Below, one piece after another: positions 2,289 through 19,874 of a stretch of 22,168 nt of DNA. Both the position numbers and the translations under genes were made by a program. Position 1 is the first letter of the stretch. The number at the start of each line of letters is the position of its first letter. The stretch is taken from positions 1 to 22,168 of IMG/VR virus record IMGVR_UViG_3300031566_003789. One strand, written 5' to 3'. The DNA comes from a virus. The notes below the pieces were generated by a model. It worked only from the letters and a program-made list of their open reading frames with translations, did no database searches and was not told the origin of the DNA.

Positions 2289-2773
2289 AGCTCCCTTAAT
2301 TTTTCATATTTCCACAACTTAATATACTTATAAGTAGTAACAATTTCTGCTCCAATCTTGTGCTTAAACCTTAATGCAGGTTCATTATTAGAATCAGTGA
2401 TGGAATAAAATACACTTCGCCCCCGGCTTCTCATCATTTCATAACATTTTGATCTCAGGATCTCAGCATAACCATTGCCCCGCTTATCGGGTTTCGTCAT
2501 TGCGGAATATAGATAACACTCATTTTCTTTTAATGAAATTTTTAACCCATAATATTCAATACTTTTAATATTAACCCATAGATAGGATAAAACCACACCA
2601 TCAGCTATTAACCCAAGACATTTAGAACCAATGAGCATTTCGCCCATGAATTTCCAAAAGGTATTCTTACTATCTTCAATGTATTTTAAATCTATTGGAC
2701 TCAACCATCGTGCCTTGAGATTGCTTTTGATTTTATAATCACCCTCTTTATACAGATTAAACCGTTTTACCAT
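2285..2773 (-). CDS. GNAT-family N-acyltransferase
   Basis: A 162-residue protein with the CoA-binding motif A of GNAT enzymes. A short strand (YLYSAMTKPD) is followed by RGNGYAEIL and a helix (KCYEMMRSRG), matching the R/Q-x-x-G-x-G/A pyrophosphate loop. Later ITDSNNEPALRFKHKIGAEIV matches the usual motif B region, where the substrate tail and CoA meet. Length is normal for a single-domain GNAT. It starts 7 bases inside the end of the BKACE gene, so the two are tightly coupled. In a glycan operon the likely acceptor is an amino-sugar or amino group on a glycan. The acyl donor might come from BKACE, which is inference only. Confidence 0.8.
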   Translation of the reverse strand: MVKRFNLYKEGDYKIKSNLKARWLSPIDLKYIEDSKNTFWKFMGEMLIGSKCLGLIADGVVLSYLWVNIKSIEYYGLKISLKENECYLYSAMTKPDKRGNGYAEILRSKCYEMMRSRGRSVFYSITDSNNEPALRFKHKIGAEIVTTYKYIKLWKYEKLREL

Positions 2774-3573
2774 ATCAGCCCCCTAAATTCGCTTGGTGTC
2801 ATTACCTCTCTCTCGTTGGCTTGTGCTAACCGATGTATCCTCAGTAATAAATCCATGTTAGTAGCAAGCTGTGTCCTTTCATTATTGTACCAGATGTTAT
2901 CTTCCAACCCTACCCGTACACCGCTACCGATAGCTATTGATATGGAGTTCATCATAAGCTGATATTCTCCTATTCCGGCCACTGAATAATAAGATGGTTG
3001 TGGAAGTTCTTTAATCATTAATCCCAGGTAAAGTGGGTCGGCTTGGGCACAGGCTATATTGCCAAATAAAAGATTGAAATAGTACGGGGGTTTTAACAAA
3101 CCCTTTTTAATCAAATATTTTGCATAGTTTATCATGCCAACATCAAAAACTTCAAGTTCAGGTCTTATCCCCCATGCCTGCATTACTAAAGCCAAATCAT
3201 GAATCATATCCGGGCTATTGACAGATTCTTCTTTATTAAAATTAAGTGATGAGAGAGTAAGGGAGGCCATGTCAGGAAATAGATCAAGACATTCTGACCG
3301 TTCTTCGAATGTTTTAAAGGTCCTCCCCGAAGTAGATAGACAAATTACAACGTCACTATATTTCCGTATTCCCTCAAATATTTCACGATAAACATCCTTT
3401 TTGTATGTTGGCTTGCCATTAGGATCACGAGCATGTATATGTACTTTGGTTATTCCCAATGCAGAGGCTTCCAGTACATCATTAATTATTTCATTCACAC
3501 TTAATGGTACAAGTGGTGTCATCTCTTTTGTCGGGATCATGCCTGTTGGACATAAATCAATAATCAGCTTCAT
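2767..3573 (-). CDS. BKACE-family beta-keto acid cleavage enzyme (DUF849)
   Basis: A 268-residue TIM-barrel type protein matching the beta-keto acid cleavage enzymes (Kce and relatives). These use Zn and acetyl-CoA to turn a beta-keto acid into acetoacetate plus a new acyl-CoA. Visible signatures are an N-terminal TGMIPTKEMTPLVPLS segment, the zinc-binding HIHARD (His45, His47), a CLSTSGR substrate strand, and near the end GVRVGLEDNIWY, whose Glu is the usual third zinc ligand. Length is near the family norm (about 270-310). It overlaps the GT10-like gene upstream (ATGA) and the GNAT gene downstream. Such a metabolic enzyme is unexpected in a phage. It may supply an acyl-CoA for the next gene's transferase, but the substrate is unknown. 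Confidence 0.8.
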   Translation of the reverse strand: MKLIIDLCPTGMIPTKEMTPLVPLSVNEIINDVLEASALGITKVHIHARDPNGKPTYKKDVYREIFEGIRKYSDVVICLSTSGRTFKTFEERSECLDLFPDMASLTLSSLNFNKEESVNSPDMIHDLALVMQAWGIRPELEVFDVGMINYAKYLIKKGLLKPPYYFNLLFGNIACAQADPLYLGLMIKELPQPSYYSVAGIGEYQLMMNSISIAIGSGVRVGLEDNIWYNNERTQLATNMDLLLRIHRLAQANEREVMTPSEFRGLIW

Positions 3574-4409
3574 TTTATTCTGTATTCTTTAATTCCTTTT
3601 AAAGCCCGCAACATGGCCTCTTTTAAAATATCCTCATATTTATAAACTTTTAACCCAAGTTTGTAATTATCTTTAACAATAGGAAGCATCCTCTTATATA
3701 CTTTGGGTGTCAGCATATTCACCTTTCTTATCAGGTCGTCAATAGAATCGATTATTATAAATCCATTCTCATTGAAATATTTCCCAATCCTTGTACAGCC
3801 CCAATAAAGCGGAATCGTTTTTGTTATCAGACAATCGATTAATTTCTCAGAGAAATAATACTCATGATGAAAACCCTCGATGCAAACATGGAACATCCGA
3901 TCAAAGACCATGACTTTTTCTTTCCTGTTCGGCCACGGCGGCATCGGCAAAGTGTCTTCTATTGGGTCAAACTGGTTCCAGGTTCCCCGATAAATATCAA
4001 AAGGTATTTTAATTTCTTTTCTCCGCTCATAAAGTTCATGCCTTAAAGGGTGCCCTGGAGCAATATTCCTGTTGGTCATCACTATTGAAACTCCGAATTT
4101 CTTCTTTATATCAGGCGCAGGATTAACAAACGATCCATTACCTATTAACTCAACAGCGTTCGGAAGTTTAAGTAGTTCCGGATATTGTGTTAAGAAATAA
4201 GAATAAGCCTGTGGGTTATTTAGAATGATTCTATTATAGTCGCCCCAGCATTCAGTGGTGACAAAAAATCTTATTGTGTCATCTGGCACTGGGTCAAGAT
4301 TCTGTGGTATCGTATTATCAATACAACACTCGACCTTCTTGTTGACCGGAAGGTCTATGTTGGCCTCAATCCCTTCGGGGAATATCGATTTCATTAAGAC
4401 TTTTGACAT
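3570..4409 (-). CDS. Glycosyltransferase, GT10 (fucosyltransferase)-like
   Basis: A 279-residue protein with the C-terminal pattern of alpha-1,3-fucosyltransferase-like GT10 enzymes. FHVCIEGFHHEYYFSEKLID is followed by CLITKTIPLYWGCTRIGKYF. This corresponds to the family's nucleotide-sugar-binding stretch, in which an aromatic/Glu motif and a Ser/Thr-Glu-Lys precede a small-residue loop and a 'P-x-Y-W/Y-G' segment. There is no signal peptide or membrane helix, so it probably acts in the cytoplasm. Two starts fit: ATG at 4409, or ATG at 4394 overlapping the previous stop as TAATG. The donor sugar cannot be fixed from sequence, and GT10 membership is by motif only. Confidence 0.75.
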   Translation of the reverse strand: MSKVLMKSIFPEGIEANIDLPVNKKVECCIDNTIPQNLDPVPDDTIRFFVTTECWGDYNRIILNNPQAYSYFLTQYPELLKLPNAVELIGNGSFVNPAPDIKKKFGVSIVMTNRNIAPGHPLRHELYERRKEIKIPFDIYRGTWNQFDPIEDTLPMPPWPNRKEKVMVFDRMFHVCIEGFHHEYYFSEKLIDCLITKTIPLYWGCTRIGKYFNENGFIIIDSIDDLIRKVNMLTPKVYKRMLPIVKDNYKLGLKVYKYEDILKEAMLRALKGIKEYRIK

Positions 4410-4984
4410 ACTATTCTTATTATAATGGGATCCTCATTTTTATAAATAGCCAAACCCCTTTGTTCTACCTGGTAAATAATTTTAAAACCTATTGATTCCA
4501 ATTTATTAGAAAGTTGGTTTATGTTTATTAGTCTCCTATAATGATTATCTTTAGGAACACTACCCTTATCACTTCTGGCCTCAATCATCAACATGCCGGA
4601 ATCGAGTAATTCAAGAGAATCCTTCAAAATACATTTCTCAAAATCTTCTGGTATGGCATGAAGTAAAAATCGACAATAGATAAAATCAAATTCTCCTGAA
4701 TAGAAATCAAATTCTTTTGTATATAAACCATCTTCAAGATCATATTTGACAAAATCAATCTTCATCATCTCAAATAATATCCTATAAAATTCAGAATAAT
4801 CAAGTGCTGTTACATCCATCCCTTCTAATTTAAAATAGATAGAATCCCTGCCATTTCCAGAACCAACATCGAGAACTCTATTACAGGGTTTCATAAACCC
4901 ACGGCAAAAATGAGCAAATTGTGATGTTTCATCCGTCACGTCCTGATACCTATTCCAGTATTCCTTATTATAAATCAAGTCCAT
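4394..4984 (-). CDS. Class I SAM-dependent methyltransferase (glycan operon)
   Basis: 196 residues with a clear Rossmann methyltransferase core. Motif I is VLDVGSGNGRDS (about 37-48), followed by MDVTALDYSE, with the acidic residue that holds the SAM ribose, and FDFIYCRFLLHAIP as the motif IV region. It overlaps the LicD-like gene upstream and the GT10-like gene downstream. The most likely job is O-methylation of a sugar or of a group added by the neighbours. It has none of the motifs of the DNA methylases found elsewhere in the window. The substrate is unknown. Confidence 0.8.
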   Translation of the reverse strand: MDLIYNKEYWNRYQDVTDETSQFAHFCRGFMKPCNRVLDVGSGNGRDSIYFKLEGMDVTALDYSEFYRILFEMMKIDFVKYDLEDGLYTKEFDFYSGEFDFIYCRFLLHAIPEDFEKCILKDSLELLDSGMLMIEARSDKGSVPKDNHYRRLININQLSNKLESIGFKIIYQVEQRGLAIYKNEDPIIIRIVCQKS

Positions 4985-5510
4985 ATACTATAGTTGCGTG
5001 TTTATCTTTTACCGGTGTCTTCCAATCACCATACCAATCAGTTAATAACTTTTCGGCATTTAATGGTATCTTGAAATCGACACCAATAAAATTTATTGTC
5101 TTAAACTCACTGAAGGGTAAATTATTTCGGCGGAAGAAACAAAGGTCTGTGTATTCATCATCACGGATAACGGAAACAAGACTGTCATTATAGGACATAC
5201 GACATAATCTAAATCCTATGTCTATCAACTTACTAATCACTATGTCAAAATTATTCTTACTCTCATAGAAAAATCCAATATCATCATCTGTGTCATGTTC
5301 AATAAATGAGTTATCCCGGACAGCCCCAAGAAGTGTTCCATACATAAGCCAGAAAACAATATCCTCACCATTAAGGATTTCTCGAATATTTAGAAGATTA
5401 CGTTTACATATTTCTATATCCCGTTTCTTTCCTTGCCTCCTTTTCAATCTGGCACCATAATTCCAAGTCACGTTTAGTTCAAAACCGAAAAATTTCTCTG
5501 CTATTGTCAT
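4968..5510 (-). CDS. LicD-family phosphotransferase-like protein
   Basis: A 180-residue protein whose centre matches the LicD/fukutin nucleotidyltransferase-fold motif. WLMYGTLLGAVRDNSFIEHD is followed by a row of aspartates (DTDDDIGF). Known family members transfer phosphocholine or similar phospho-alcohols from CDP-linked donors to sugars. The GTLLGAVR loop and the Asp triplet that bind Mg-nucleotide are intact. The protein is shorter than many LicD proteins but complete across the catalytic region. The start overlaps the preceding glycosyltransferase stop as ATGA. Together with the methyltransferases it points to heavy decoration of the glycan. The group transferred is not known. Confidence 0.8.
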   Translation of the reverse strand: MTIAEKFFGFELNVTWNYGARLKRRQGKKRDIEICKRNLLNIREILNGEDIVFWLMYGTLLGAVRDNSFIEHDTDDDIGFFYESKNNFDIVISKLIDIGFRLCRMSYNDSLVSVIRDDEYTDLCFFRRNNLPFSEFKTINFIGVDFKIPLNAEKLLTDWYGDWKTPVKDKHATIVYGLDL

Positions 5511-6193
5511 TTCTCATTTCCTGTTACATATTCACTTCTCCCATGTCCTATATTCACGGCATATTCGCCTATCAAGCACGCCGACCTGTATCCCAGATCA
5601 TGATATCTCTCACCGATAGCCTGTTCCCGGTGCCATATAGTACCCTCCCAGGGAATATCGGCATAAGGAGCTACCCTCTTATAATCACTCAGCCTTTTAA
5701 GTCCACAGGCAGTAGTAAACCCGTGCCATGCGAAATCATTATAGCCATTCATACCCTTCTGATAGTTCTCAATAAGTAACTGATAAGATGTATTGCCTAT
5801 TTTCAGAATCTCAGGTTCTAAAGGATTGTTATTGTAATCAGCCAGCCAGACTTCTTCGATATCCGGTCTTGCTTCCATTATTTCAAGAGATTGTTCTATG
5901 AATCCATCCTTAGTAACACACCAGTCATCTTCACAATGGAAAAAATACTCCGTGCCAATAAACCCATAACCCTCATCAACACTTTTTATCAGCCCCATGT
6001 TCTCTTTATTGAAGACAAATGTTGCATTGCTATAGGTATTCTTTAATTGTAAATGGATTCCCTTGTCACCCGAATCATTGACTATGATAAAATCAACAAA
6101 TGGATATTTGTTTATCTCAATAAATGCCTTTACAGACCTGTATAGGAGATCGAGTCTTCGGCAACTAAAGAATATGACTGTTAATTCTTGCAT
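5507..6193 (-). CDS. Glycosyltransferase, GT-A (GT2-like)
   Basis: 228 residues with an N-terminal nucleotide-binding half: a strand (LTVIFFSCRR), a helix, then DFIIVNDSG, with the first conserved Asp. The DXD-like metal site is FFHCEDDWCV, where EDD takes the usual place. A C-terminal acceptor part follows (WHGFTTACGLKRL, WEGTIWHREQAIGERYHDLGY). There are no membrane segments. It overlaps the upstream GT2 gene by 29 bases, and no later in-frame Met gives a shorter overlap without cutting into the first strand. Family-level function is clear; sugar specificity is not. Confidence 0.75.
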   Translation of the reverse strand: MQELTVIFFSCRRLDLLYRSVKAFIEINKYPFVDFIIVNDSGDKGIHLQLKNTYSNATFVFNKENMGLIKSVDEGYGFIGTEYFFHCEDDWCVTKDGFIEQSLEIMEARPDIEEVWLADYNNNPLEPEILKIGNTSYQLLIENYQKGMNGYNDFAWHGFTTACGLKRLSDYKRVAPYADIPWEGTIWHREQAIGERYHDLGYRSACLIGEYAVNIGHGRSEYVTGNEK

Positions 6194-6935
6194 ATACTTT
6201 TTTATTTCTTATATATTCTGTAGCAAGCAACTGCTTTTCGGTTCTGATCGTGCCGTCACAATTCGGGTTAAGATCGTTATAATAATAGAGTATCTTATCA
6301 ATAAATCTGATATGATTTCCTGCCATTTCAACCATAGAATACATATAGGCCAGATCACCAGCAACCTTAAAATATTCTCCATCCTCATCCCGCAAATCCT
6401 TATCATCTATCTTATCCCATAACCACCGCTTGAATGTCCGCAGGTGTGATGTTACCCAGAGTCCGCTCTTCCGGTAAGTCTCCGGAGTAACACTTGTCTC
6501 AACAAGATAACCCGCTTCGCATGGTGTCATTATATGGGAAAAATTCTGACAGGTATTTTTATACTTACCTGATAATGGCAGGAATGAACCGTATGTCAGC
6601 CATACATCATCCTGATAAACTTCATTAAGACAATTCAGTACACCGTCATCAGCAAGATAATCATCACCATCAACGGTAACTATAATGTCATTCTCTTTCG
6701 ATATAAACTTAATACCGAGACCTATATTTCTTAAAGAAGAACCAGTATGTTTATAGTTTCTATAATGATGAGTATTAAACTCTTTTATTATATCCCACGT
6801 ACTATCTTCAGAACAATCATCAATAACAGCAACTTCATAATCTGAATATTTCTGTGTGGTTACCGATTCCAGACACCGTCCTATCCATTGCTCTGCATTA
6901 TACACCGGGATTACTATGATAAATTTATTCTGCAT
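6165..6935 (-). CDS. Family 2 glycosyltransferase
   Basis: A 256-residue classical GT2. IIVIPVYNAEQWIGRCLES opens the fold, VAVIDDCSEDST carries the first Asp pair that binds the nucleotide, and IIVTVDGDDYL contains the DXD metal site. The second half (TPETYRKSGLWVTSHLRTF, DEDGEYFKVAGDLAYMYSM) has the acidic ED-type segment expected for the catalytic base and acceptor region. It is a soluble inverting transferase that would use an NDP-sugar. It overlaps genes on both sides and is part of the coupled glycan operon. Confidence 0.88.
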   Translation of the reverse strand: MQNKFIIVIPVYNAEQWIGRCLESVTTQKYSDYEVAVIDDCSEDSTWDIIKEFNTHHYRNYKHTGSSLRNIGLGIKFISKENDIIVTVDGDDYLADDGVLNCLNEVYQDDVWLTYGSFLPLSGKYKNTCQNFSHIMTPCEAGYLVETSVTPETYRKSGLWVTSHLRTFKRWLWDKIDDKDLRDEDGEYFKVAGDLAYMYSMVEMAGNHIRFIDKILYYYNDLNPNCDGTIRTEKQLLATEYIRNKKVYARINSHIL

Positions 6936-7761
6936 CTCTGATCAAATTACTGATTATACAATCCGGCAGGTTTTTCTCTCCCCCGGCTGTCTGATTCAGG
7001 AAATTGCCCCAAATCTCATTGCCTCCATACCAGTGACAGCCAATAGATTCCTCATTAAACCTCGGATTCGCTCCGTTAAGTAATTCCCGTACATTATAGG
7101 CGCTGTGGGCATAAACGACATCCATTGACAGATTAACGGCATTGGGGATTTTGTCCATATCCCTGTAATATTTATTCATCATTTCTGGCCCCCAACACTG
7201 ATAATGTTTGGGATGATATTCCTTATTAAGTGTATTTGTAAAAAACCCGAAGAAACGACTATCTTTTGTAGCCATATTGAATCCCGTTGAATGGCCATAG
7301 GAACTGATACAGACATAGGTTTCTTTATCTTTATTCTCCGGTATATTTGTCTTCAGGGATGTTATGGGCTTGAAATAGATAATATCCATGTCGCTCCATA
7401 CACCCCCGTAAAGATTCAAAACAGAAACTCTTATGTAATCATTCTTATGAACCTCTGCCATGCCCTTACGAAATCCAAGACCGGTAAAGTCCACCGACAC
7501 TTTCTCTATTGGTAATTTTAATAGTTCAGGTATATAATCTTTGCAGAGTTTTTCATCAAGATATTGATAGTTGGTATTTATTCCCCATGACCTGCCCTTA
7601 TGGGATTCTTGGGGATACCAGAAAATAATGTCCCAGTCGGGGTTGAGCTTCATAAAGCTCTTAATAGTCAGATACCGGAGATATATCAACTTACCACCGC
7701 CCCAATAGAGATGCAATATTTTGGGCACACTCAGATGCCAGTTATTTTTCTCTTCCACCAT
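6925..7761 (-). CDS. Glycosyltransferase with DXD sugar-binding region (GT32-like)
   Basis: 278 residues. It begins with VPKILHLYWGGG, the usual PKxIHxxWxG opening of the Gly_transf_sug/GT32 group. NPDWDIIFWYP follows, and later YIRVSVLNLYGGVWSDMDII, the hallmark stretch in which the DMD triad binds metal and nucleotide-sugar. Known relatives include capsular polysaccharide synthesis transferases and the eukaryotic OCH1 mannosyltransferases. Length is complete. It overlaps the exostosin-like gene by 31 bases upstream and the GT2 gene by 11 downstream. Confidence 0.87.
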   Translation of the reverse strand: MVEEKNNWHLSVPKILHLYWGGGKLIYLRYLTIKSFMKLNPDWDIIFWYPQESHKGRSWGINTNYQYLDEKLCKDYIPELLKLPIEKVSVDFTGLGFRKGMAEVHKNDYIRVSVLNLYGGVWSDMDIIYFKPITSLKTNIPENKDKETYVCISSYGHSTGFNMATKDSRFFGFFTNTLNKEYHPKHYQCWGPEMMNKYYRDMDKIPNAVNLSMDVVYAHSAYNVRELLNGANPRFNEESIGCHWYGGNEIWGNFLNQTAGGEKNLPDCIISNLIRDAE

Positions 7762-8558
7762 TCAAATTCTAATTTATCCATATTCCACTCCTTGCGACTT
7801 ATCTCCATAAATGAATCATGAAGGAACTTATCAGTCATCTCTTCCCAGTCATCAAGGAAGAGAATCGGCAAATCGGTATAAAAGCTGTTATTAATATTTC
7901 TTATGACTATCGGTATTGTATTCATATACAGACACTCCCAGACCCTGTGAGTATCAATCCCGTTCCCCTCCGGGCAAACAACAAAGGGATGGTTATAGAC
8001 ATTCTGTATGTAATTATCAAATCCCTGACCATTAGAACCCATGTGCATCGTTGCCCAATTTGCACTCCGGAGTACATCATAGGGTTTCTTTCTGGCTGCG
8101 GGATTGGTTTTTATGTTGTGATTTATATAGACCATATTCCTATATTTCTTCGGGGTTTTTAGCTTTCCCTCCATTATCCTCTTCTTATCCTTGAGCCAGA
8201 AATCATTTTCTATGCCTACCGGTATCGAAAAGACGCTTTCATTGGTAATATTCACGTTTGTTGTGTACCAGACAACACCTACGGGCGGTGTAAGATCAGC
8301 AGGGTTATCGGCATTATGGGTTATTACGGTGACTTTTTTGTTAAGCCTTTCAAATAGCTGATCTGCATAAAAAGTATGGGTATAGATAATATCGCCGTCC
8401 TGAAGTTGCGCCCAATCGAGTGTATTCCGCAAATATCTGTAATCGCTTGGGGAAAAATTATTCACGGCATCCCGATACTCATGACCTATGTAAATCCTCG
8501 GAGGCGCATAATGCCACCTTGCAATGGTCTTGAATTTATTACCTTGTATAAAATTCAT
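7731..8558 (-). CDS. Exostosin-like (GT47-type) glycosyltransferase
   Basis: 275 residues. The C-terminal half has the GT-B donor-binding pattern of exostosin-like proteins: HPFVVCPEGNGIDTHRVWEC, then LYMNTIPIVI. The N-terminal half holds YTHTFYADQLFERL and VTVITHNADNP. No signal or membrane segment is seen. The ATG overlaps the preceding methyltransferase stop as ATGA. Its first codons (IQGNKF) recur in a 17-codon frame at 9175-9228, a possible relic of a related gene. The family call rests mainly on the PEGNGIDTHRxWE motif as I know it from bacterial glycan loci. Confidence 0.68.
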   Translation of the reverse strand: MNFIQGNKFKTIARWHYAPPRIYIGHEYRDAVNNFSPSDYRYLRNTLDWAQLQDGDIIYTHTFYADQLFERLNKKVTVITHNADNPADLTPPVGVVWYTTNVNITNESVFSIPVGIENDFWLKDKKRIMEGKLKTPKKYRNMVYINHNIKTNPAARKKPYDVLRSANWATMHMGSNGQGFDNYIQNVYNHPFVVCPEGNGIDTHRVWECLYMNTIPIVIRNINNSFYTDLPILFLDDWEEMTDKFLHDSFMEISRKEWNMDKLEFEWWKRKITGI

Positions 8559-9169
8559 TGTAGTTCCATTTTAGTACATTCAGAATATTTCTCTTGAAAC
8601 TCTTTAATATGAGGTTTCAGTGCTTCATTTAAAGAACCCTTATCAATTTCTTTGCGGATCATAACACAAGTGCCCGTCCTGTTTGTAGTAAGGACATAGC
8701 TGTTAAAACCCTCTTTATTTATCAGATGATAATTGTTGGTCTGCATACCAATGTCGTCACAATCATGATACATAATTATATCAAACTTTCCCCGAAGAGT
8801 ATTTATTGAGATAACTCTGCATGATGGGACATGATCGACAAATAGAAGATTGGGTTTTAAATCAGGGATGACAATGTTTCCATAATAATCCACAAATTGC
8901 TTATCTTGTTCTTCTGTAAGATCATTTATAAAATCACAATCATGCACCTCGCCCAGGTTGTGATAAATGACATCTATACCAAGTTCATTTTTAATGTGAT
9001 CAATCCAATCAATATCATTCTCAATAAACATCGCCTCCCTATTCATAAACAGAGGAGTTGAATAAATGCCACAACCAAGTTCTAATACAAATTTAGGATC
9101 ATATAGATCGAGTATTGCCTTAATTAGTGGCTGGTGTGTTGCCCATTCAAATCCCTGTGCTATAAACAT
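8555..9169 (-). CDS. SAM methyltransferase-like protein (glycan operon)
   Basis: 204 residues with a Rossmann-type motif I (FVLELGCGIYSTPLF, about 28-42), then MFIENDIDWIDH, in which the acidic residues would hold SAM. A later strand is LLFVDHVPSC, and FDIIMYHDCDDIG could carry a metal or catalytic site. It resembles the class of methyltransferases common in surface-glycan operons, but the rest of the fold is divergent. An N-terminal helical part (GFEWATHQPLIKAILDLY) precedes motif I. It lies between two glycosyltransferase genes. The substrate is unknown. Confidence 0.6.
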   Translation of the reverse strand: MFIAQGFEWATHQPLIKAILDLYDPKFVLELGCGIYSTPLFMNREAMFIENDIDWIDHIKNELGIDVIYHNLGEVHDCDFINDLTEEQDKQFVDYYGNIVIPDLKPNLLFVDHVPSCRVISINTLRGKFDIIMYHDCDDIGMQTNNYHLINKEGFNSYVLTTNRTGTCVMIRKEIDKGSLNEALKPHIKEFQEKYSECTKMELQ

Positions 9170-9174
9170 AATGT

Positions 9175-9228
9175 TTATTTTATAGTATCTCCAATTCCGA
9201 ACTTATTACCCTGTATTACATCATTCAT
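9175..9228 (-). pseudogene. 17-codon frame, likely remnant of a glycan gene
   Basis: The frame reads [17 protein letters not shown] and stops. Its ATG overlaps the preceding transferase stop as ATGA, exactly like the intact genes around it. The IQGNKF segment also opens the exostosin-like gene at 8558, and the two DNA stretches match at 16 of 18 bases there. I infer the start of a lost gene (deletion or exchange), or a coupling peptide kept to pass ribosomes to the gene at 9169. No family call is possible from 17 residues. Confidence 0.4.
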
Positions 9229-9959
9229 AAGTCAGTAGTTATTAAATGTTCAGCTCTAAATGTACCCTCCCGTTTTAGCTTTTCGCACAATGTCCCCGTT
9301 CTGGCATACAGTTCCGCATCAAAAGTGAAAGCCTTCCTATCATAATGATACTGGTGAAAAACAAATGGGGCGTTAATAAAATCAATCCGGAGTCCAAGCG
9401 TCCTGATCTGATGAACCAAATAATTGTCCTCATATCCCAGACCATCCCAAAATCTCTCATCAAAACCGTTGATCAATTTCAGATTTCCCGGCGTTATAGC
9501 ACAACAAAAATGCAATGCCTCAGGCCGGTATTTGGAGTGATTATACCATGCCGAATCACCATTATGTACCGCAGTCCTGTTATTGAATTTTTTAAGATTA
9601 ACGTCTTGATTCTTTCCCAGAGAATAACAGGCAAAAGAAAGGTAATTATAAGACTTTATATTATCCCTGACGCATTTTACAATATCTCCCACATGGTAAC
9701 ATTCCGGATTCTGAATTATAACAGCTTCGGGATTTTTCTTCAATGCCTCCCCAAATCCTATATTGAAATTCACCCCGGGATTAATCCAGTTTTTTTCTTT
9801 TATTTCGATTATAGTTATATCAAATGGATATTCCGATAGATTAATAGGCCCCGAATCATTTACAACAAAAACCTCAATATCCTTATATCCCCTGAATGAC
9901 TCAAGTGTTTTAAGAAATTGCTCTTCCCTGTCGTGATATGCTGTGACTATTGCTATCAT
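9225..9959 (-). CDS. Glycosyltransferase, GT2/GT7C-type
   Basis: 244 residues. The N-terminal GT-A half has [20 protein letters not shown] and VFVVNDSG. The DXD-equivalent is less typical ([13 protein letters not shown]). The C-terminal half carries [20 protein letters not shown], the galactosyltransferase-type motif in which the ED pair is the catalytic/acceptor site. I chose the ATG at 9959, whose ATGA overlaps the decarboxylase stop. An upstream in-frame ATG at 10016 would add 19 basic residues ([13 protein letters not shown]) read inside the neighbouring gene, and these look non-native. It is the first sugar transferase after the donor-making enzyme. Confidence 0.85.
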
Positions 9960-10867
9960 GAAAAATATCTGATTGTGTTTCTTAATCCTTCCTCTAAATC
10001 TACAATGGGACTCCATCTTAATAGTTCTTGTGCAAGTGATATATCGGGCCTTCTGCGAACAGGATCATCAGCGGGCAGTGGCCGAAACTTAATTACTGAT
10101 TCGGAATCTGTCAAATAAAGAATCTTATCAGCTAATTCCTTAATAGAATATTCTTCCGGATTCCCTATATTAACCGGCAAACAATAATCAAAATCCATTA
10201 ATTTTATCAAACCTTCAATTAGGTCAGAAACGTATTGGAAGCTCCTTGTCTGGCTTCCATCGCCATAAATAGTTATATTTTCCCCTTTTAATGCCTGAAC
10301 GATAAAATTAGAAACTACCCTGCCGTCATTGGGGTGCATCTTGGGACCATAGGTATTAAAAATCCGTGCAATCCTTATATCAACTTTATGTTCATGGTAA
10401 TAATCCATGAATAAGGTTTCAGCACAACGCTTGCCCTCATCATAACAACTGCGGATTCCTATTGGATTTACGTGTCCCCAGTAATCTTCCCTTTGTGGAT
10501 GAATAACAGGATCTCCATATACTTCACTTGTGGAGGCTTGTAATATTCTTGCCCCGGTTTCTTTAGCGAGATTAAGCATATTAATCGCACCCTGAACAGC
10601 CGTCCTAACTGTCTTTACAGGGTCGTGTTGATAATGAACCGGGGAGGCTGGACAAGCCAAATTATAAATCTGATCGACCTGCAAATGATAAGGAATTGTC
10701 ACATCCCATCCTACGAAAGTAAAATTCTTATTATCCAATAAATGAAGTATATTCTTGCGGGAACCAGTAAGTAAGTTATCTAAACAGATAATTTCATTAT
10801 CATGAATTAATCTTTCACAAAGATGTGAACCAATAAATCCGGCACCCCCTGTAATAAGTATTCTCAT
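9956..10867 (-). CDS. UDP-glucuronate decarboxylase (UDP-xylose synthase)-like epimerase/dehydratase
   Basis: A 303-residue extended short-chain dehydrogenase. The NAD loop GGAGFIG is at residues 7-13. [14 protein letters not shown] and TSEVYGDP are signature segments of UXS enzymes. The catalytic Tyr142 and Lys146 are in SCYDEGK, preceded by HVNPIG. IFNTYGP and [10 protein letters not shown] complete the sugar-nucleotide site. UXS enzymes convert UDP-glucuronate to UDP-xylose, so it would supply a donor for the transferases that follow. The ATG at 10867 overlaps the stop of a 35-codon gene; another ATG at 10876 is possible. A related NDP-sugar 4-epimerase is the main alternative, but the motifs favour UXS. 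Confidence 0.88.
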
Positions 10868-10971
10868 GACAGACATATCGGATATTCTTTAAATACGAAC
10901 CGATAGATAGACTTATTCATACCTTCGTTCCATAAGACTACTCTTATCCTGAACCATACTCTTGAAGCCAT
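10864..10971 (-). CDS. Short basic peptide coupled to the decarboxylase gene
   Basis: A 35-residue frame ([20 protein letters not shown]...) that is Arg/aromatic-rich. It ends with TGA inside the ATG of the decarboxylase gene (ATGA). It fills the gap of about 100 bases after the Cys-rich protein gene, and an A/T-rich leader (AAATTAAATAAT) precedes its ATG. No family is recognised. It could be a genuine micro-protein or a remnant. Confidence 0.4.
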
Positions 10972-11254: not shown

Positions 11255-11917
11255 TCATACAAATTCAAGTTTAGTCTGCATCTTATGTGTCTCAAATCTC
11301 TTAGCCGCAGCATCGTAGTAATCCTTGTCAATCTCGCAACCTATAAATTCACATCCAAAATCATAAGCTGCTATTGCCGAACTTCCAGAACCTAAATGAG
11401 TGTCGATAATCTTAAATTCGGGTTTGGCGTATTTCTTTAAAAGCCATTTGTAGAGCGCAATAGGTTTTTGTTGTGGATGGATCCTGCCATCACTTCCGTT
11501 ATTACCCCAATTTATAGAACCATTTTGAACATTTCCCGACCATTGATATTCAAAATATTCTATCTTATTATTAAATGTCTGAGAAGCCAAATCACATTCA
11601 GATAAATTTTTACCTTTCGACCAAGAGGTTAATTTTTTATAATGAACAATCCGCCCCGGTGATTTTATAAATGGATAGAAATAATTACAACCCCAAATTA
11701 TTTGATGTATTGATATTCTTTCTAATTCAATAAAATAGGATCTATCAGGTATTAAATTATTCCAAATAATTTTATTATGTATAGATGATTTTTTACCTCT
11801 TGAAAACCTGTTTGTATTTCCTATCCCATACGGCGGGTCAACAATAGCTAAATCAAAATACTTATCCGGTACTTTCGCCATGTATTCCATACAGTCGATA
11901 TTTAAAAGCTCAATCAC
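11255..11917 (-). CDS. DNA methylase, N6-adenine/N4-cytosine type (copy 1)
   Basis: A 220-residue orphan DNA methyltransferase. Catalytic motif IV, DPPY, lies near the N-terminus (residues 27-30, in AIVDPPYGIG). SAM-binding motif I comes late (IIDTHLGSGSSAIAAYDFG, then EIDKDYYDAA). This is the IV-before-I order of the N6_N4_Mtase family (beta-type), which modifies the exocyclic amine of A or C. The middle segment (about 35-145) should hold target recognition. It is a paralogue of the gene at 16833-17462: both ends are nearly alike and the middle differs. The GTG start lies in the 29-bp repeat and overlaps the previous stop. No restriction enzyme is nearby, so a protective or regulatory role is likely. 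Confidence 0.9.
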   Translation of the reverse strand: MIELLNIDCMEYMAKVPDKYFDLAIVDPPYGIGNTNRFSRGKKSSIHNKIIWNNLIPDRSYFIELERISIHQIIWGCNYFYPFIKSPGRIVHYKKLTSWSKGKNLSECDLASQTFNNKIEYFEYQWSGNVQNGSINWGNNGSDGRIHPQQKPIALYKWLLKKYAKPEFKIIDTHLGSGSSAIAAYDFGCEFIGCEIDKDYYDAAAKRFETHKMQTKLEFV

Positions 11918-12126: not shown

Positions 12127-12141
12127 TTCACATCTTAATTG

Positions 12142-12212
12142 TAGCGAGAGAAAGATTCGAACTTTCGACTGGAGCTTATGAGACTCCCGAGATACCACTT
12201 CTCCATCTCGCT
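12142..12212 (-). tRNA. tRNA with anticodon CAT (Met or Ile2)
   Basis: A 71-nt cloverleaf. The acceptor stem is AGCGAGA/TCTCGCT (7 bp). The D stem is GAGA/TCTC with loop AGTGGTA. The anticodon stem is GGAGT/GCTCC (one G-T pair) with loop CTCATAA, giving anticodon CAT. The variable region has 4 nt. The T stem is GAAAG/CTTTC with loop TTCGAAT, and the discriminator is A. CCA is not encoded. Position 1 is paired, unlike a bacterial initiator, so it is elongator Met or, if lysidine-modified, the Ile tRNA reading AUA. The second would suit an AT-rich phage, but sequence alone does not decide. Confidence 0.95.
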
Positions 12213-12509: not shown

Positions 12510-12587
12510 CCCAATGAAAAACTACCCAAATTTACTAACAGCCTACCTATTATTACGTTCATAACCCTTCGGGTTTTTAACAATTTA

Positions 12588-12655
12588 ACCTTGCCTAGCC
12601 TTGCCTTGCCGTGCCTTGCCTCGCCGTGCCACGCCTCGCCTGGCCATGCCCTGCC
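12588..12655. repeat. GGCNN five-base-period array 1
   Basis: Thirteen GCC triplets (plus strand) at exactly five-base spacing from 12593 to 12655, preceded by an ACC at 12588. The two bases between vary (TA, TT, GT, TC, AC, TG, AT, CT). In minus-strand sense it is GGCNN, starts 5 bases after the metallophosphoesterase stop, and ends in near-uniform GGCAA units next to GGTTAAAT. It is not a reading frame: the period is 5. Confidence 0.95.
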
Positions 12656-12660
12656 GCGAT

Positions 12661-13473
12661 TTATATTTTTATAGCCTCCATCTTTTGGGAGTTAATTTCG
12701 ACAACAACCTGATCCCACTTAAAGGAACCATCATCTTCGACATCAAAAACCGTCACACCCCAATGCACCGTACCGGAACAAATCCTTGCCCCGAATTTTG
12801 TACCCATGCCCTGAAGTGCCGGAAGTGTCATTGCTACCCATCCAGGCTCACCGCAAAATGTTGCATAATGAACGTGCGCCCTTAAAATAACATTTGCCCT
12901 CGGTCTCAGGTCTCGTTCATTCCAGAGGACGTTCCAGAGACGCTCTTTTGCCGGGGCAGTAAATCTACCATGTGGAATTGATGAACCGCTTACATGGTGT
13001 CTTAAATCAAAAATACAGCCATTAACATCAACTGATTCATGGGAACCTATTTTTTCAAAACCGCATCTTTCAGCGATAATACTCTCCCAATCCTCCCCAC
13101 CTTCACCCGATGTATGATAACCTGTTCCATAAACGCCAATCCATTTAAAGTTTTTACTGCCCCTGTCAGATATGTTTTGTAGGCACTCAACGGCCATATC
13201 GACTTGTGTATTACGGTCAGCATATATTAATTCCGTAGCCCCTGATTTTGATTCTTTGCCGTCTATTAAATCACCAAGCTCAAAGCCAATATCGAAAGGT
13301 TTGTATTTTTCGAGTATGTTAGTAAACTTAATATATAGTTCACTTTGAAGTTTCTCCCACTTATTGTGCTTTGTAGTGCTATTTTCAACCTCCTTGTATT
13401 GATATGCCGGAGGCGTTAATCCCGCCACGTGCCCACAATGTAAGTCTGCTATTGCAATAATTCGCTTTTTCAT
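12661..13473 (-). CDS. Calcineurin-like metallophosphoesterase
   Basis: 270 residues with the metal-site blocks in order. IAIADLHCGH is the D-x-H site. ELGDLIDG is the GD-x-x-D site. VYGTGYH is at the place of GNHE, with the Asn replaced. RHHVSG and LRAHVHY (the GHxH place) complete the set. The enzyme would hydrolyse phosphodiesters or phosphomonoesters with two metals. The changed GNHE block suggests altered chemistry or substrate, though phage members often vary there. Start is ATG-AAA-AAA with an A/T-rich leader and no Shine-Dalgarno. GGCNN arrays lie on both sides. A role in nucleic-acid metabolism or defence against host nucleotide signals is possible but unproven. Confidence 0.85.
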   Translation of the reverse strand: MKKRIIAIADLHCGHVAGLTPPAYQYKEVENSTTKHNKWEKLQSELYIKFTNILEKYKPFDIGFELGDLIDGKESKSGATELIYADRNTQVDMAVECLQNISDRGSKNFKWIGVYGTGYHTSGEGGEDWESIIAERCGFEKIGSHESVDVNGCIFDLRHHVSGSSIPHGRFTAPAKERLWNVLWNERDLRPRANVILRAHVHYATFCGEPGWVAMTLPALQGMGTKFGARICSGTVHWGVTVFDVEDDGSFKWDQVVVEINSQKMEAIKI

Positions 13474-13496
13474 TTTATAAATTTTAAGTTAAGTTT

Positions 13497-13539
13497 GCCT
13501 TGCCTTGCCGTGCCCTGCCGTGCCTAGCCATGCCTCGCC
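13497..13539. repeat. GGCNN five-base-period array 2
   Basis: Nine GCC triplets (plus strand) at exact five-base spacing (13497 to 13539). The spacers are TT, TT, GT, CT, GT, TA, AT, TC. In minus-strand sense it begins 8 bases after the stop of the gene at 13548 and ends in GGCAAGGCAA just before the leader of the metallophosphoesterase gene. Confidence 0.95.
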
Positions 13540-13547
13540 CAGAATAT

Positions 13548-14102
13548 TTAATTCCATTCAGAAACTTTAAACTTGCCAAATACACCCCGGTATGTTCCGA
13601 GTCCTATACTGATACCGCCCTCCTCGAATATCCTGCGCAAAATTGCCTCATTGACATCATTATTTTCGAAAAGCGTTATCTTGAACGAAAGAGACCAGGG
13701 AGGTAATAATACCGGCCTTATCTTTTCTGAAGGCACAATAAGCCCCCCTGTTTTCTTGACCCGTGCTACCCTCCGGTCAATCATATAATCTGAATTATCC
13801 AAAGTAAGCGCAACGCCATCACGCATAATTGATATTTCGTTAGGGTCTATATCCACATAGGATAGAATAGCCCTGGCTACCCCCCTCCATTTTCTACCTA
13901 TCACTCTCTTTGTTGCTGACTCCGTTAGGTCTGCTGTCAAGAATGAGGAAATGTTTACAGCTGGCAGGACTAAGCTCTTGCCGTCCTGTGCTAAGTAGAA
14001 TTTTTGATCCGGAGAGGTTTCCTGACCGCTCATATTCAAATATTTGTCGAACATAATCGGACGTATCCCCTCCAATGTGATTTGCCTCGTGATTGTTTTC
14101 AT
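13548..14102 (-). CDS. Unknown phage protein with a RAMP-like glycine loop
   Basis: 184 residues with no family I can name firmly. It opens with a strand (ITRQITLEGIRPIMFDKY), has KSLVLPAVNISSFLTADLTE and a basic helix (KRVIGRKWRGVARAILSYV), and ends with GGISIGLGTYRGVFGKFKV. The last segment, Gly-rich with an Arg and an aromatic residue and followed by a strand, resembles the glycine loop of RAMP/Cas7-like RNA-binding proteins. That is a pattern-level likeness only. A second ATG at 14169 in another frame has a better ribosome site, but only about 22 unique codons. GGCNN arrays flank this gene on both sides. Confidence 0.65.
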   Translation of the reverse strand: MKTITRQITLEGIRPIMFDKYLNMSGQETSPDQKFYLAQDGKSLVLPAVNISSFLTADLTESATKRVIGRKWRGVARAILSYVDIDPNEISIMRDGVALTLDNSDYMIDRRVARVKKTGGLIVPSEKIRPVLLPPWSLSFKITLFENNDVNEAILRRIFEEGGISIGLGTYRGVFGKFKVSEWN

Positions 14103-14189
14103 TTTCGAAGTTTTTAGTTAATAAATCAAAATCTATAATTATCTTATCTATTATAGTAAAGCCGCTCATGATTTCTTCCCCTCTATTTA

Positions 14190-14242
14190 ACCTTGCCTTG
14201 CCTTGCCGTGCCCAGCCCCGCCGGGCCGCGCCTTGCCAAGCC
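14190..14242. repeat. GGCNN five-base-period array 3
   Basis: An ACC at 14190 followed by ten GCC triplets at exact five-base spacing (14195 to 14242). The spacers are TT, TT, TT, GT, CA, CC, GG, GC, TT, AA. In minus-strand sense it begins 17 bases after the stop of the gene at 14260. Its 3' end is three uniform GGCAA units and GGTTAAAT, shared with array 1. The older-looking 5' units are the most divergent and include a GCCC-GGCG-GGGC hairpin. Confidence 0.95.
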
Positions 14243-14259
14243 GTGTTTTATCGCTCATT

Positions 14260-16832: not shown

Positions 16833-17462
16833 TTAAAATAATTTTTGTTGCATTTTATGAATCTCAAACCGCCGCAATGCTGCATCGTAATAATCCTTGT
16901 CAATTTCACATCCGATAAAGTCACAACCAAAATCATATGCTGCTATTGCTGAACTACCAGAACCCAGATGAGTGTCAATAATCTTAAATTCAGTTTTGGC
17001 ATAGTTCCTGAGAAGCCATTTATATAAATCTTTCGGCCGTTGACATGGATGAATATTGGTTATGCCTGTTTCATTTCCCTTGCGTCCTCCAGACCATTGG
17101 ATAAAAATCTTTCGCATTGGTATTTTAAATGAAGTCCAAGCCAATTCACATTCGGAGGTATTCATTTTTTCAACATCATTCCCCTTGTCCCAAATAATCC
17201 AGCTATTAGTTATTGGCAAATAATGACAGAAATAATTTCCACCCCAAATAATTTGATTTTTACTTATTCTAAATAATTCAACAAAATATTGTTTATCTGG
17301 TATTTTTTGATTCCATCCCTTTTTGCCATAATGTTGGGTATGTTTCTGTTTCATCCAATAATCACCAATCCCATATTGAGGGTCAACAATAGCCAAATCA
17401 AAGTACTTATCTGGTACTGTCGCCATATATTCCATGCAGTCGATATTTAAAAGCTCAATCAT
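16833..17462 (-). CDS. DNA methylase, N6/N4 type (copy 2, DPQY variant)
   Basis: 209 residues from the ATG at 17462, which overlaps the previous stop (ATGA); a frame from 17495 adds only an unlikely leader. Layout is as in copy 1: the motif IV region at the start (AIVDPQYGIG) and a late SAM motif (IIDTHLGSGSSAIAAYDFG, EIDKDYYDAA). The catalytic DPPY is changed to DPQY (codon CAA instead of a CCN proline codon), which may weaken or alter catalysis. The central segment, with KHTQHYGKKGWNQKIPDKQY, differs strongly from copy 1 and probably carries a different target specificity. No partner endonuclease is seen. Confidence 0.88.
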   Translation of the reverse strand: MIELLNIDCMEYMATVPDKYFDLAIVDPQYGIGDYWMKQKHTQHYGKKGWNQKIPDKQYFVELFRISKNQIIWGGNYFCHYLPITNSWIIWDKGNDVEKMNTSECELAWTSFKIPMRKIFIQWSGGRKGNETGITNIHPCQRPKDLYKWLLRNYAKTEFKIIDTHLGSGSSAIAAYDFGCDFIGCEIDKDYYDAALRRFEIHKMQQKLF

Positions 17463-17989
17463 TTTTCTATTCCAAATTCTTGTGGTGTAGGCCAATGCCC
17501 GTTACCTATCCTAACTGCTAATTCTTTCAAGGGAACCTTATCCCAATTATCACCAGTCAGCCCCCAATCTATCTTCTTGCAAATAGCCTTACCAAGTGGA
17601 CACCTTTCCAGATCCTTGAAATGTAATGTGTCACCTGACAACCTGGCTGCCCTGTCGTCATGCTCAAGTTTATGCCTGTAATCCAGTGTAACTTCAGAAA
17701 CCCAATCGTAAATATTGCGTGGGTTAAGAGTTACCTTTTCATTCTTCAACTTACCCAGCGATCCACGTATAAAAGCCGAAGCGATAACCGATAATGGAGC
17801 AAACGAAAACTCCGGCAGCTGTATGTTCTCTATCACTCTGTCAACTTCTACCCTCTCCACTTTGGCTCCCATATTCAAAGCAGCGTGTTCAATAAAATCA
17901 CTGATAAAAATTTTAAAATTCTCAGTAGGTATGTCCTTTACTGCATAGGAAGCATATACCTGGTATTTTTCATTCTTAAGCATATCCAT
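17459..17989 (-). CDS. Unknown replication-module protein
   Basis: About 176 residues from the ATG at 17989 (MDMLKNEKYQVYASYAV...). An in-frame ATG at 18025 would add 12 residues and a 50-base overlap with the upstream gene, while one at 17983 would shorten it by two residues; 17989 is a compromise. A central segment (SVIASAFIRGSLGKLKNEKV, then NPRNIYDWVSEVTLDYR) resembles helical proteins found beside DUF6291 proteins in Bacteroidetes phages, possibly helicase-loader-like. A late CPLGKAICKKIDWG may bind metal weakly. I cannot name a function. Confidence 0.65.
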   Translation of the reverse strand: MDMLKNEKYQVYASYAVKDIPTENFKIFISDFIEHAALNMGAKVERVEVDRVIENIQLPEFSFAPLSVIASAFIRGSLGKLKNEKVTLNPRNIYDWVSEVTLDYRHKLEHDDRAARLSGDTLHFKDLERCPLGKAICKKIDWGLTGDNWDKVPLKELAVRIGNGHWPTPQEFGIEK

Positions 17990-18684: not shown

Positions 18685-18862
18685 TTGCCATTAATTCCTC
18701 TACTCCAACAAAGAACTCGTATCCACAGTCGCAGACATAGTGCCCCGGCTCTGGTCGTTCATCTTTATAGTCATGCCACAATCCTGTTTCATACCAGCCG
18801 TCATCGTCTCGAAACCAGGTAACCCGTTTTAGAATAGTGCTTCCGCATTCAGGACATTTCAT
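18671..18862 (-). CDS. Small zinc-ribbon protein
   Basis: 63 residues with CPEC near the start (residues 3-6) and CDCG near residue 44. These two Cys pairs should hold one zinc. Between them lies an acidic, aromatic loop (WFRDDDGWYETGLWHDYKDE). The ATG lies inside the 3' end of the cytosine methylase gene. Likely a small nucleic-acid or protein adaptor; function unknown. Confidence 0.65.
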   Translation of the reverse strand: MKCPECGSTILKRVTWFRDDDGWYETGLWHDYKDERPEPGHYVCDCGYEFFVGVEELMANEIH

Positions 18863-19874
18863 AATATTTCTGTATTACTTTGAATAACTCAAAAGCGACT
18901 TGCGGGACAATGGCGTTTCCGAGCCCTTTAAGTCTGTCAACTCTGTTTTTGATTCCTGCTGCGACTCTTGGCACTCCGTTAGGTTCGTGTAACCAATAGG
19001 GTAGCCCATTAACCATTCGACCCAATTCGGATTTAAAGTCCCGCATTTCCCATTCTCTATTGCATCCCTTAGTGAATTTGTCATTGGATTGCGTCCCGTT
19101 ATTTCCATTGTTTCCAATTTCCTGCAACCCTTGTAATCTACTGTCGCTGGTGTCGGGAACATCTTTACCTGATTGCTTAATGTTAATGTTGTTTTCCCTG
19201 CCAACACGCTTGGAGCCAGACAATGATTGTGTGTCCCGTCTGCACCCATCGGAGTACGCCACAATCCATATTCTGTCTCGTCTATGCCACGCTCCGATGG
19301 CACAAGCTGGAATAATAAATTGTTCTGTCGTGTAGCCTTCATTCGCCAGGTCAGAGAGTATCCCGTCAAGTGTTTTGCCATTCCCCATCGAGACGAGGCC
19401 AGCAACATTTTCGCCAACGACAAAGGACGGTTTAAGGATTCTGATAGTTGTAAGCATCGAAGGCCAGAGGTAACGGCTGTCGTCAACTCCTTTTCGTTTT
19501 CCAGCATGGGAAAAAGGCTGGCAGGGGAAGCCTCCGGTGAGGATGTCGATTTGTCCGAGATTGATTCTTTTGTCCTTTCCCTGTGTAATATTTCTGATAT
19601 TAAATTCGTCCCCCCTAATTTCTTTTGGTATCTTTTTTCCGATAGTTGTCCTCTTGCTGAATCCATCGCCTGTGGTGTTGGTAATAATTTCCCCATTCTG
19701 TAACATTTTATTAAATTCAACAATATCTCCGAACCTCAAAGTGTCAGGGAAGTTCTTTGCAAGTATCTTCTGACACCACTTATCCCATTCAACCTGGAAT
19801 ACATTCTCCCAACCCATCCATTGAGCAGCCAAGTCAAAACCTCCGATTCCTGAAAATAAACTGCCATGTCTCAC
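18849..19874 (-). CDS. dcm: DNA cytosine-C5 methyltransferase
   Basis: 341 residues from a GTG start. Ordered C5 motifs: I, LFSGIGGFDLAAQ (6-18); IV, GGFPCQPFS with catalytic Cys118; VI, ENVAGL (155-160); VIII, RRDRIWIVAY (198-207); and X, GLGNAIVPQVAFELF near the end. Residues about 55-107 form an insertion between motifs II/III and IV. The target-recognition region (about 208-300) is low in hydrophobic residues (NNINIKQSGK, GNNGNNGTQSND), and both regions coincide with a long nested second frame. Probably an orphan phage methylase that guards DNA from host restriction; the target site is unknown. Confidence 0.92.
   Translation of the reverse strand: MRHGSLFSGIGGFDLAAQWMGWENVFQVEWDKWCQKILAKNFPDTLRFGDIVEFNKMLQNGEIITNTTGDGFSKRTTIGKKIPKEIRGDEFNIRNITQGKDKRINLGQIDILTGGFPCQPFSHAGKRKGVDDSRYLWPSMLTTIRILKPSFVVGENVAGLVSMGNGKTLDGILSDLANEGYTTEQFIIPACAIGAWHRRDRIWIVAYSDGCRRDTQSLSGSKRVGRENNINIKQSGKDVPDTSDSRLQGLQEIGNNGNNGTQSNDKFTKGCNREWEMRDFKSELGRMVNGLPYWLHEPNGVPRVAAGIKNRVDRLKGLGNAIVPQVAFELFKVIQKYYEMS
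18875..19696 (-). other. Long nested reading frame inside the cytosine methylase gene
   Basis: A 273-codon open frame in the same direction, shifted one base relative to the methylase, starting at ATG 19696 (or TTG 19723). It is protein-like: KLLPTPQAMDSARG at the start, SRWGMAKHLTGYSLTWRMKA, LLFQLVPSERG, MFPTPATVDYKG, and GTLNPNWVEWLMGYPIGYT near the end. LPTP-x-A-x-D and LNP-x-WVEW-x-MG-x-P patterns recur, in my memory, in proteins annotated beside phage cytosine methylases. It could be a true dual-coding gene, or a by-product of codon choice in conserved methylase motifs. A 158-codon plus-strand frame also overlaps, which warns about composition. Confidence 0.35.

Follow-up and report, generated by a model that had tools for sequence, protein, structure and literature searches.

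Arrays and genes at the locus

The window analysed here is a stretch of 22,168 bases, an IMG/VR virus record, and it carries three (GGY NN)n arrays, each in perfect five-base phase and all on the minus strand (Table 1). An earlier note on this DNA had described three arrays of strict five-base period at these places, and its counts hold, with 13, 9 and 10 in-phase GGC triplets; including the GGT at the end and the half unit at the start gives 14, 9 and 11 YNNGG units. Four GGC units in phase are matched 23 times, always on the minus strand, against 0.00 expected from dinucleotide-preserving shuffles, and no further array of at least four units occurs anywhere in the window. The placement of the arrays after stop codons on the transcribed strand was likewise borne out, since they start about 2-17 nt past the stops of minus-strand genes (12661, 13548 and 14260), at offsets of -88, +5 and +889 nt relative to the gene identified below as vipr. 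The final units are rich in GGCAA, and the flank that the note had seen as common to two arrays is present as GGTTAAAT, the GGT of which is the last GGY. An assembly artefact, a possibility the note had raised, is unlikely because the related contig L280, the nearest relative found (Vipr 57% and phosphoesterase 90% identical), has arrays at the same three places, together with one more.

Table 1. Features of the window and, in the last row, tRNA-like tails in other phage loci.
Feature	Position	Strand	Remarks
Putative vrRNA array upstream of vipr	14190..14245	-	11 YNNGG units; NN 5'->3' AC TT AA GC CC GG TG AC AA AA AA
Candidate tail, 3' flank of upstream array	14165..14189	-	taaatagaggggaagaaatc...
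vipr, 184 aa, predicted RAMP-fold protein	13548..14102	-	sequence profile and predicted structure; phrog_4652 family; homologue of SUSP1 Vipr, PDB 36pp
Putative vrRNA array directly downstream of vipr	13497..13542	-	9 units; NN TG GA AT TA AC AG AC AA AA
Candidate vrRNA tail, 3' flank of middle array	13473..13496	-	short, A/T-rich aaacttaacttaaaatttataaa; partly common to L280 arrays; no strong structure seen
Calcineurin-like metallophosphoesterase, 270 aa	12661..13473	-	Pfam PF00149 in 8/12 aligned proteins, not in the window's copy on its own
Putative vrRNA array after phosphoesterase gene	12588..12658	-	14 units; NN GC AG AT CA GA GT AC GA AA AC AA AA TA AA
Candidate tail, 3' flank of third array	12548..12587	-	small hairpin aacccgaagggtt
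5' flanks with TATAAAT/ATAAAACT-like motif	12659-12668, 14246-14252		window
tRNA-Met(CAT) gene	12141-12212	-	about 380 bases beyond third array
Methyltransferase-type genes	11255-11917, 16833-17495, 18849-19874	-	DNA N6/N4 methyltransferase (PF01555); second gene, near-identical ends; C5 cytosine methyltransferase
Loci with tRNA-like tails	L488 (Mycobacterium phage LittleE) 2178-2440, 3669-3905; L013 ~3760; L036 two arrays		

The gene lying between the first and second arrays encodes a protein whose family is dominated by a single cluster, with 49 of 50 aligned members assigned to phrog_4652 (unknown function). A search of the PDB with the 50-member family profile returned 36pp, the 'SUSP1 Vipr protein', at E=4.1e-39 (next match 0.078), and a profile restricted to the window's own clade matches 36pp alone in the PDB (E 3.9e-5). 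It was the match of the family profile that led to VIPR, a literature search under the repeat sequence having returned nothing relevant. The AlphaFold2 model of the window's Vipr (mean pLDDT 96.1, pTM 0.89) predicts a RAMP fold with an RRM core and a glycine-rich loop, and a C-terminal glycine-rich motif, ISIGLGTYRGVFGKF, is present in the sequence. Every one of this model's 50 best Foldseek matches in the PDB is a chain from a CRISPR effector, in most cases a type III or VII RAMP (E 9e-6 to 4e-4, probability 1.00), with moderate TM-scores to RAMPs of 0.4-0.6; third among its BFVD matches is a phage protein named 'Cas system-associated RAMP superfamily protein' (E 1.1e-6). A tblastn search of INPHARED with the window's Vipr gave no match.

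The arrays of the window and of L280 have in common a short, A/T-rich 3' flank (aaac.taa..ttaaaa) bearing no significant structure. No outstanding promoter-like site was found in the window. In the window and L280, most arrays have a TATAAAT/ATAAAACT-like motif immediately 5' of their first unit, possibly a promoter or processing signal. A short open frame on the minus strand (13894-14169) begins just past the upstream array and overlaps the vipr start out of frame, and L280 seems to conserve its first ~20 residues. At 2767-10876 the minus strand carries a series of sugar and surface genes that includes glycosyltransferases, LicD, a methyltransferase and a GDP-mannose dehydratase-like epimerase, along with a beta-keto acid cleavage enzyme.

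Linkage of the arrays to vipr

A pattern scan of IMG/VR for (GGCNN)5GGC listed at least 120 viral stretches, many of which hold more than one array, almost always on a single strand and usually a few bases past a same-strand stop codon; (GGCNN)n runs after stop codons, which the earlier note had suggested looking for, do recur in related phages. The genes adjoining the arrays in these listed stretches resembled one another, and a first protein profile was built from 17 of them together with the window's 13548-14102. Among the 120 listed viral loci, chosen solely by the DNA pattern, 79 contain a vipr homologue. A longer pattern, run on 84,980 genomes of bacteria and archaea, mainly picked up simple microsatellites or GC-rich matches, with a few degenerate arrays on metagenome-assembled contigs, two of which carry a vipr-family gene.

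The linkage also holds in the reverse direction. Searching IMG/VR by the Vipr protein alone produced 80 loci, and arrays, called at no fewer than seven units and four different NN, occur in 60 of them, none more than 3 kb from vipr. There are 16.8 arrays per 10 kb within 500 bases of the gene, 1.8 between 0.5 and 1 kb, about 0.2 between 1 and 3 kb, and none farther out. In 61 of 81 loci the arrays flank vipr, intergenic and on the coding strand, and only four arrays in all lie on the opposite strand. No array was found in 31 control viral loci fetched by an unrelated pattern, nor in 78 Vipr-less loci of the neighbouring metallophosphoesterase. The note's placing of the arrays at gene ends holds, but their anchor is the vipr gene rather than gene ends in general, as the density profile indicates. 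A Felixounavirus, wV8, which we take to belong to the group of SUSP1, served as positive control: its Vipr homologue has an array on each side, of 9 and 11 units.

A strict array is missing from 20 of the 80 relatives, most of which have looser 5-periodic GG runs near vipr, and the scaffold consensus may accordingly vary by lineage. Such runs, with GGA allowed, were seen in loci without strict arrays in the range L293-L346 (e.g. L333 near 5876). The metallophosphoesterase adjoins vipr in 17 of 81 loci, clustered on the tree in the window's Vipr lineage. As a candidate new accessory gene it was dropped after a reverse test, vipr being missing at 78 of 79 further loci of its family; no role in the system is claimed for it, since it is a common phage gene elsewhere.

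Relation to VIPR and alternative readings

VIPR (Viral Interference Programmable Repeat) is the subject of a 2026 preprint (bioRxiv 2026.04.26.720920, PMC13142463), the main text of which gives examples from Escherichia phage SUSP1 and from a prophage of Pseudomonas fulva and distinguishes seven types, with accessory vap genes. As described there, vrRNAs comprise 9-16 YNNGG units in which GGY is scaffold and NN guide, followed by an invariable 3' tail that is structured, with a pseudoknot, in the SUSP1 clade; the Vipr-vrRNA complex recognizes double-stranded DNA with one base skipped between NN pairs and represses transcription, and natural targets lie in rival phages and satellites (PMC13142463).

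The window resembles these systems in its small, single, phage-borne RAMP gene, in its intergenic GGY/NN arrays, one upstream and the others downstream, whose 9-14 units fall within the 9-16 given in the preprint, and in the pairing of a conserved scaffold with hypervariable NN. It differs from the SUSP1 system in a distant Vipr (single-sequence phmmer E 0.11, the clade profile being needed to reach the value given above), in arrays that stand singly after consecutive genes, in NN that are A-rich beside the tail, in the neighbouring metallophosphoesterase, and in a short A/T-rich 3' flank, the structured tail of the SUSP1 clade not being seen in the window's array RNAs. The locus is thus a new, divergent example of VIPR and not a new kind of system; it comes from an uncultivated phage and is probably undescribed.

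A RAMP fold is shared with the class 1 CRISPR effectors (Cas7/Csm3/Cmr RAMPs with crRNA), and, as the preprint points out in its main text, these also resemble VIPR in placing repeated subunits on a guide RNA with bases periodically unpaired (PMC13142463). In contrast to class 1 CRISPR, the period in the window is 5 rather than 6 and the guide letters are non-contiguous. A tandem-repeat scan, as distinct from a dedicated CRISPR finder, revealed no long repeat-spacer array in the window, and six of its proteins that were scanned gave no cas or PADLOC CRISPR matches.

The reading favoured here, at a probability of roughly 0.94, is that of a phage-borne VIPR in which Vipr and three vrRNA arrays serve in NN-guided DNA recognition and target repression. 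The arrays are most likely genes for vrRNAs with NN pairs that select DNA through the 1-nt-skip code of the preprint, and the targets are probably rival phages. In such a system, the 184-aa Vipr would be the RAMP-fold protein whose subunits hold the repeated GGY bases of the guide RNAs encoded by the flanking arrays, and the hypervariable NN would be displayed to pair with double-stranded DNA as xNN xNN, one base being skipped between pairs. Repression would then fall on the bound target, most likely a gene carried by a competing phage, satellite or prophage. RNA expression, complex formation, 1-nt-skip recognition and repression are carried over by analogy from the other phages in the preprint's main text (PMC13142463), and the window phage's copy would presumably work alike, with its three vrRNAs directed against other DNA. 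Protein binding to the RNA, one of the roles for the arrays that the earlier note had entertained, is the likely one.

The foremost alternative, in itself very improbable, is a cis-acting mRNA element that is bound by a ring-like or multimeric TRAP-like protein and controls stability or termination of the preceding genes. Sites of TRAP (trp RNA-binding attenuation protein) consist of a conserved triplet with 2-nt spacers repeated about 11 times, and the arrays reproduce this geometry 9-14 times, in a position just past stop codons that would suit a cis element. The triplet is a different one, however, and the spacers are hypervariable and apparently informative, whereas a cis element needs no hypervariable NN, least of all NN that differ almost completely between relatives as close as the window and L280. 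The linkage is moreover to vipr and not to a class of regulated genes, and the protein at the arrays has a predicted RAMP rather than TRAP fold. Less probable still are selfish microsatellites or ones produced by slippage, or a hotspot of recombination where genes end within recombination modules. Some bacterial contigs do contain simple microsatellites of the (GGCTT)n type, the arrays gain and lose units in steps of five bases, and recombination genes (YqaJ, RusA-like, SSB) often lie nearby; yet a microsatellite would be homogeneous or drift everywhere, while here three of five positions are fixed and two free, and the selfish repeat or hotspot suggested in the note leaves unexplained why the arrays follow a single protein family and do not occur in the controls.

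The faintest prospect is a DNA or RNA structure devoid of guide function, either a two-tier G-quadruplex (GGN3 runs) or hairpins with G.G mismatches. A GG every five bases permits G2N3 quadruplexes, and one array folds slightly better than its shuffles (z -1.97), but the other two fold no better (z 0.11 and 0.09), and this unremarkable folding speaks against a plain structural element. A quadruplex would also have no need for the constant C of GGY (95%), and a structural reading leaves both the hypervariable NN and the vipr link unexplained.

The reciprocal searches and controls, independent of the discoverers' method, show that in environmental phages GGY/NN arrays and the Vipr RAMP occur jointly, and a simple DNA pattern suffices for phage annotators to find VIPR loci.

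Putative guide letters, array change and candidate targets

Column entropies across the clade, calculated from 1205 units with three intact neighbours to either side, are 0.32 bits for Y, 1.89 for N1, 1.97 for N2, and 0.22 and 0.15 for the two G positions. GG/Y is therefore near-invariant and NN near-maximal in entropy, indicating selection on a scaffold with hypervariable guide letters, and the earlier view of divergent units as older and drifting does not fit such columns (0.15-0.32 against 1.9-2.0 bits). In L280, nearly all NN differ from those of the window, except AA at the 3' end.

Closely related phages exemplify how arrays change. Among loci with identical vipr DNA, L305 has extra units relative to L303/L304 that are interior (GT; a GA GT TG tandem), and the difference between the 17 units of L304 and the 24 of L305, a comparison of unit number that the note had called for, arises through interior insertions. 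L287 and L288 are one NN letter apart with identical vipr DNA, and in L323 and L325 the guides are replaced while vipr remains 96% identical. Growth from one end finds no support in these pairs. The polarity from which that growth had been deduced is nonetheless real: AA occupies the last NN in 48-66% of arrays in every GC class, compared with 0-7% at the first NN, and this bias fades over about four units. It is absent in wV8, and is thus lineage-specific.

Taken as a whole, and with rather less than an even chance of holding jointly, these features may mean that in this VIPR lineage 2-4 tail-proximal NN pairs form a fixed A-rich handle and are not guide letters, so that the working guide would be shorter than the array; that new guides would arise without acquisition machinery, by interior gain or loss of five-base units and NN-confined substitutions; and that in some other VIPR phages the guide RNAs would be matured with tRNA-like 3' ends, suggesting the use of host tRNA-processing enzymes. 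The A-rich tail-proximal bias, interior unit gain and loss, and tRNA-like tails are absent from the main text of PMC13142463. The pairs of phages with identical vipr and different arrays make guide change without adaptation genes, which that main text does not settle, directly testable.

IMG/VR was searched for targets with the 8-NN cores of each guide, allowing one skipped base, and yielded no confident DNA target for the three guides, the cores having 3-27 matches and the remaining NN agreeing at about the chance level. Guide 2 matches 18/18 letters in genes of L265 and L277, which we take from their motifs to be T4-like terminase genes, and the skipped base there does not coincide with the codon wobble. 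In several large terminase-like genes the core of guide 3 lies, wobble-phased, on an FFVQPGAL motif (17-18/22 letters overall); the best matches of this guide, 20/22, occur in two further, unrelated proteins, close to the chance expectation. The matches of both guides are possible leads from sequence comparison and are not claimed as targets. A pooled test of 0-3 nt skips, with 256 guides on 2.2 Mb, detected no excess outside preselected loci.

As to the 3' ends of arrays in other phages, an Rfam search of ten relatives detected no hammerhead ribozymes. Minihelices resembling the acceptor and T-arm of a tRNA were seen after some arrays, for example CGGCGGTTCGAGTCCGCCG, closed by CCGGG/CCCGG. 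Such a stem-loop lies within 110 nt of 8 of 484 distinct arrays, where about 0.6 would be expected, one of the eight (L313) being a true tRNA, and these tRNA-like minihelices suggest maturation by tRNA-processing enzymes.
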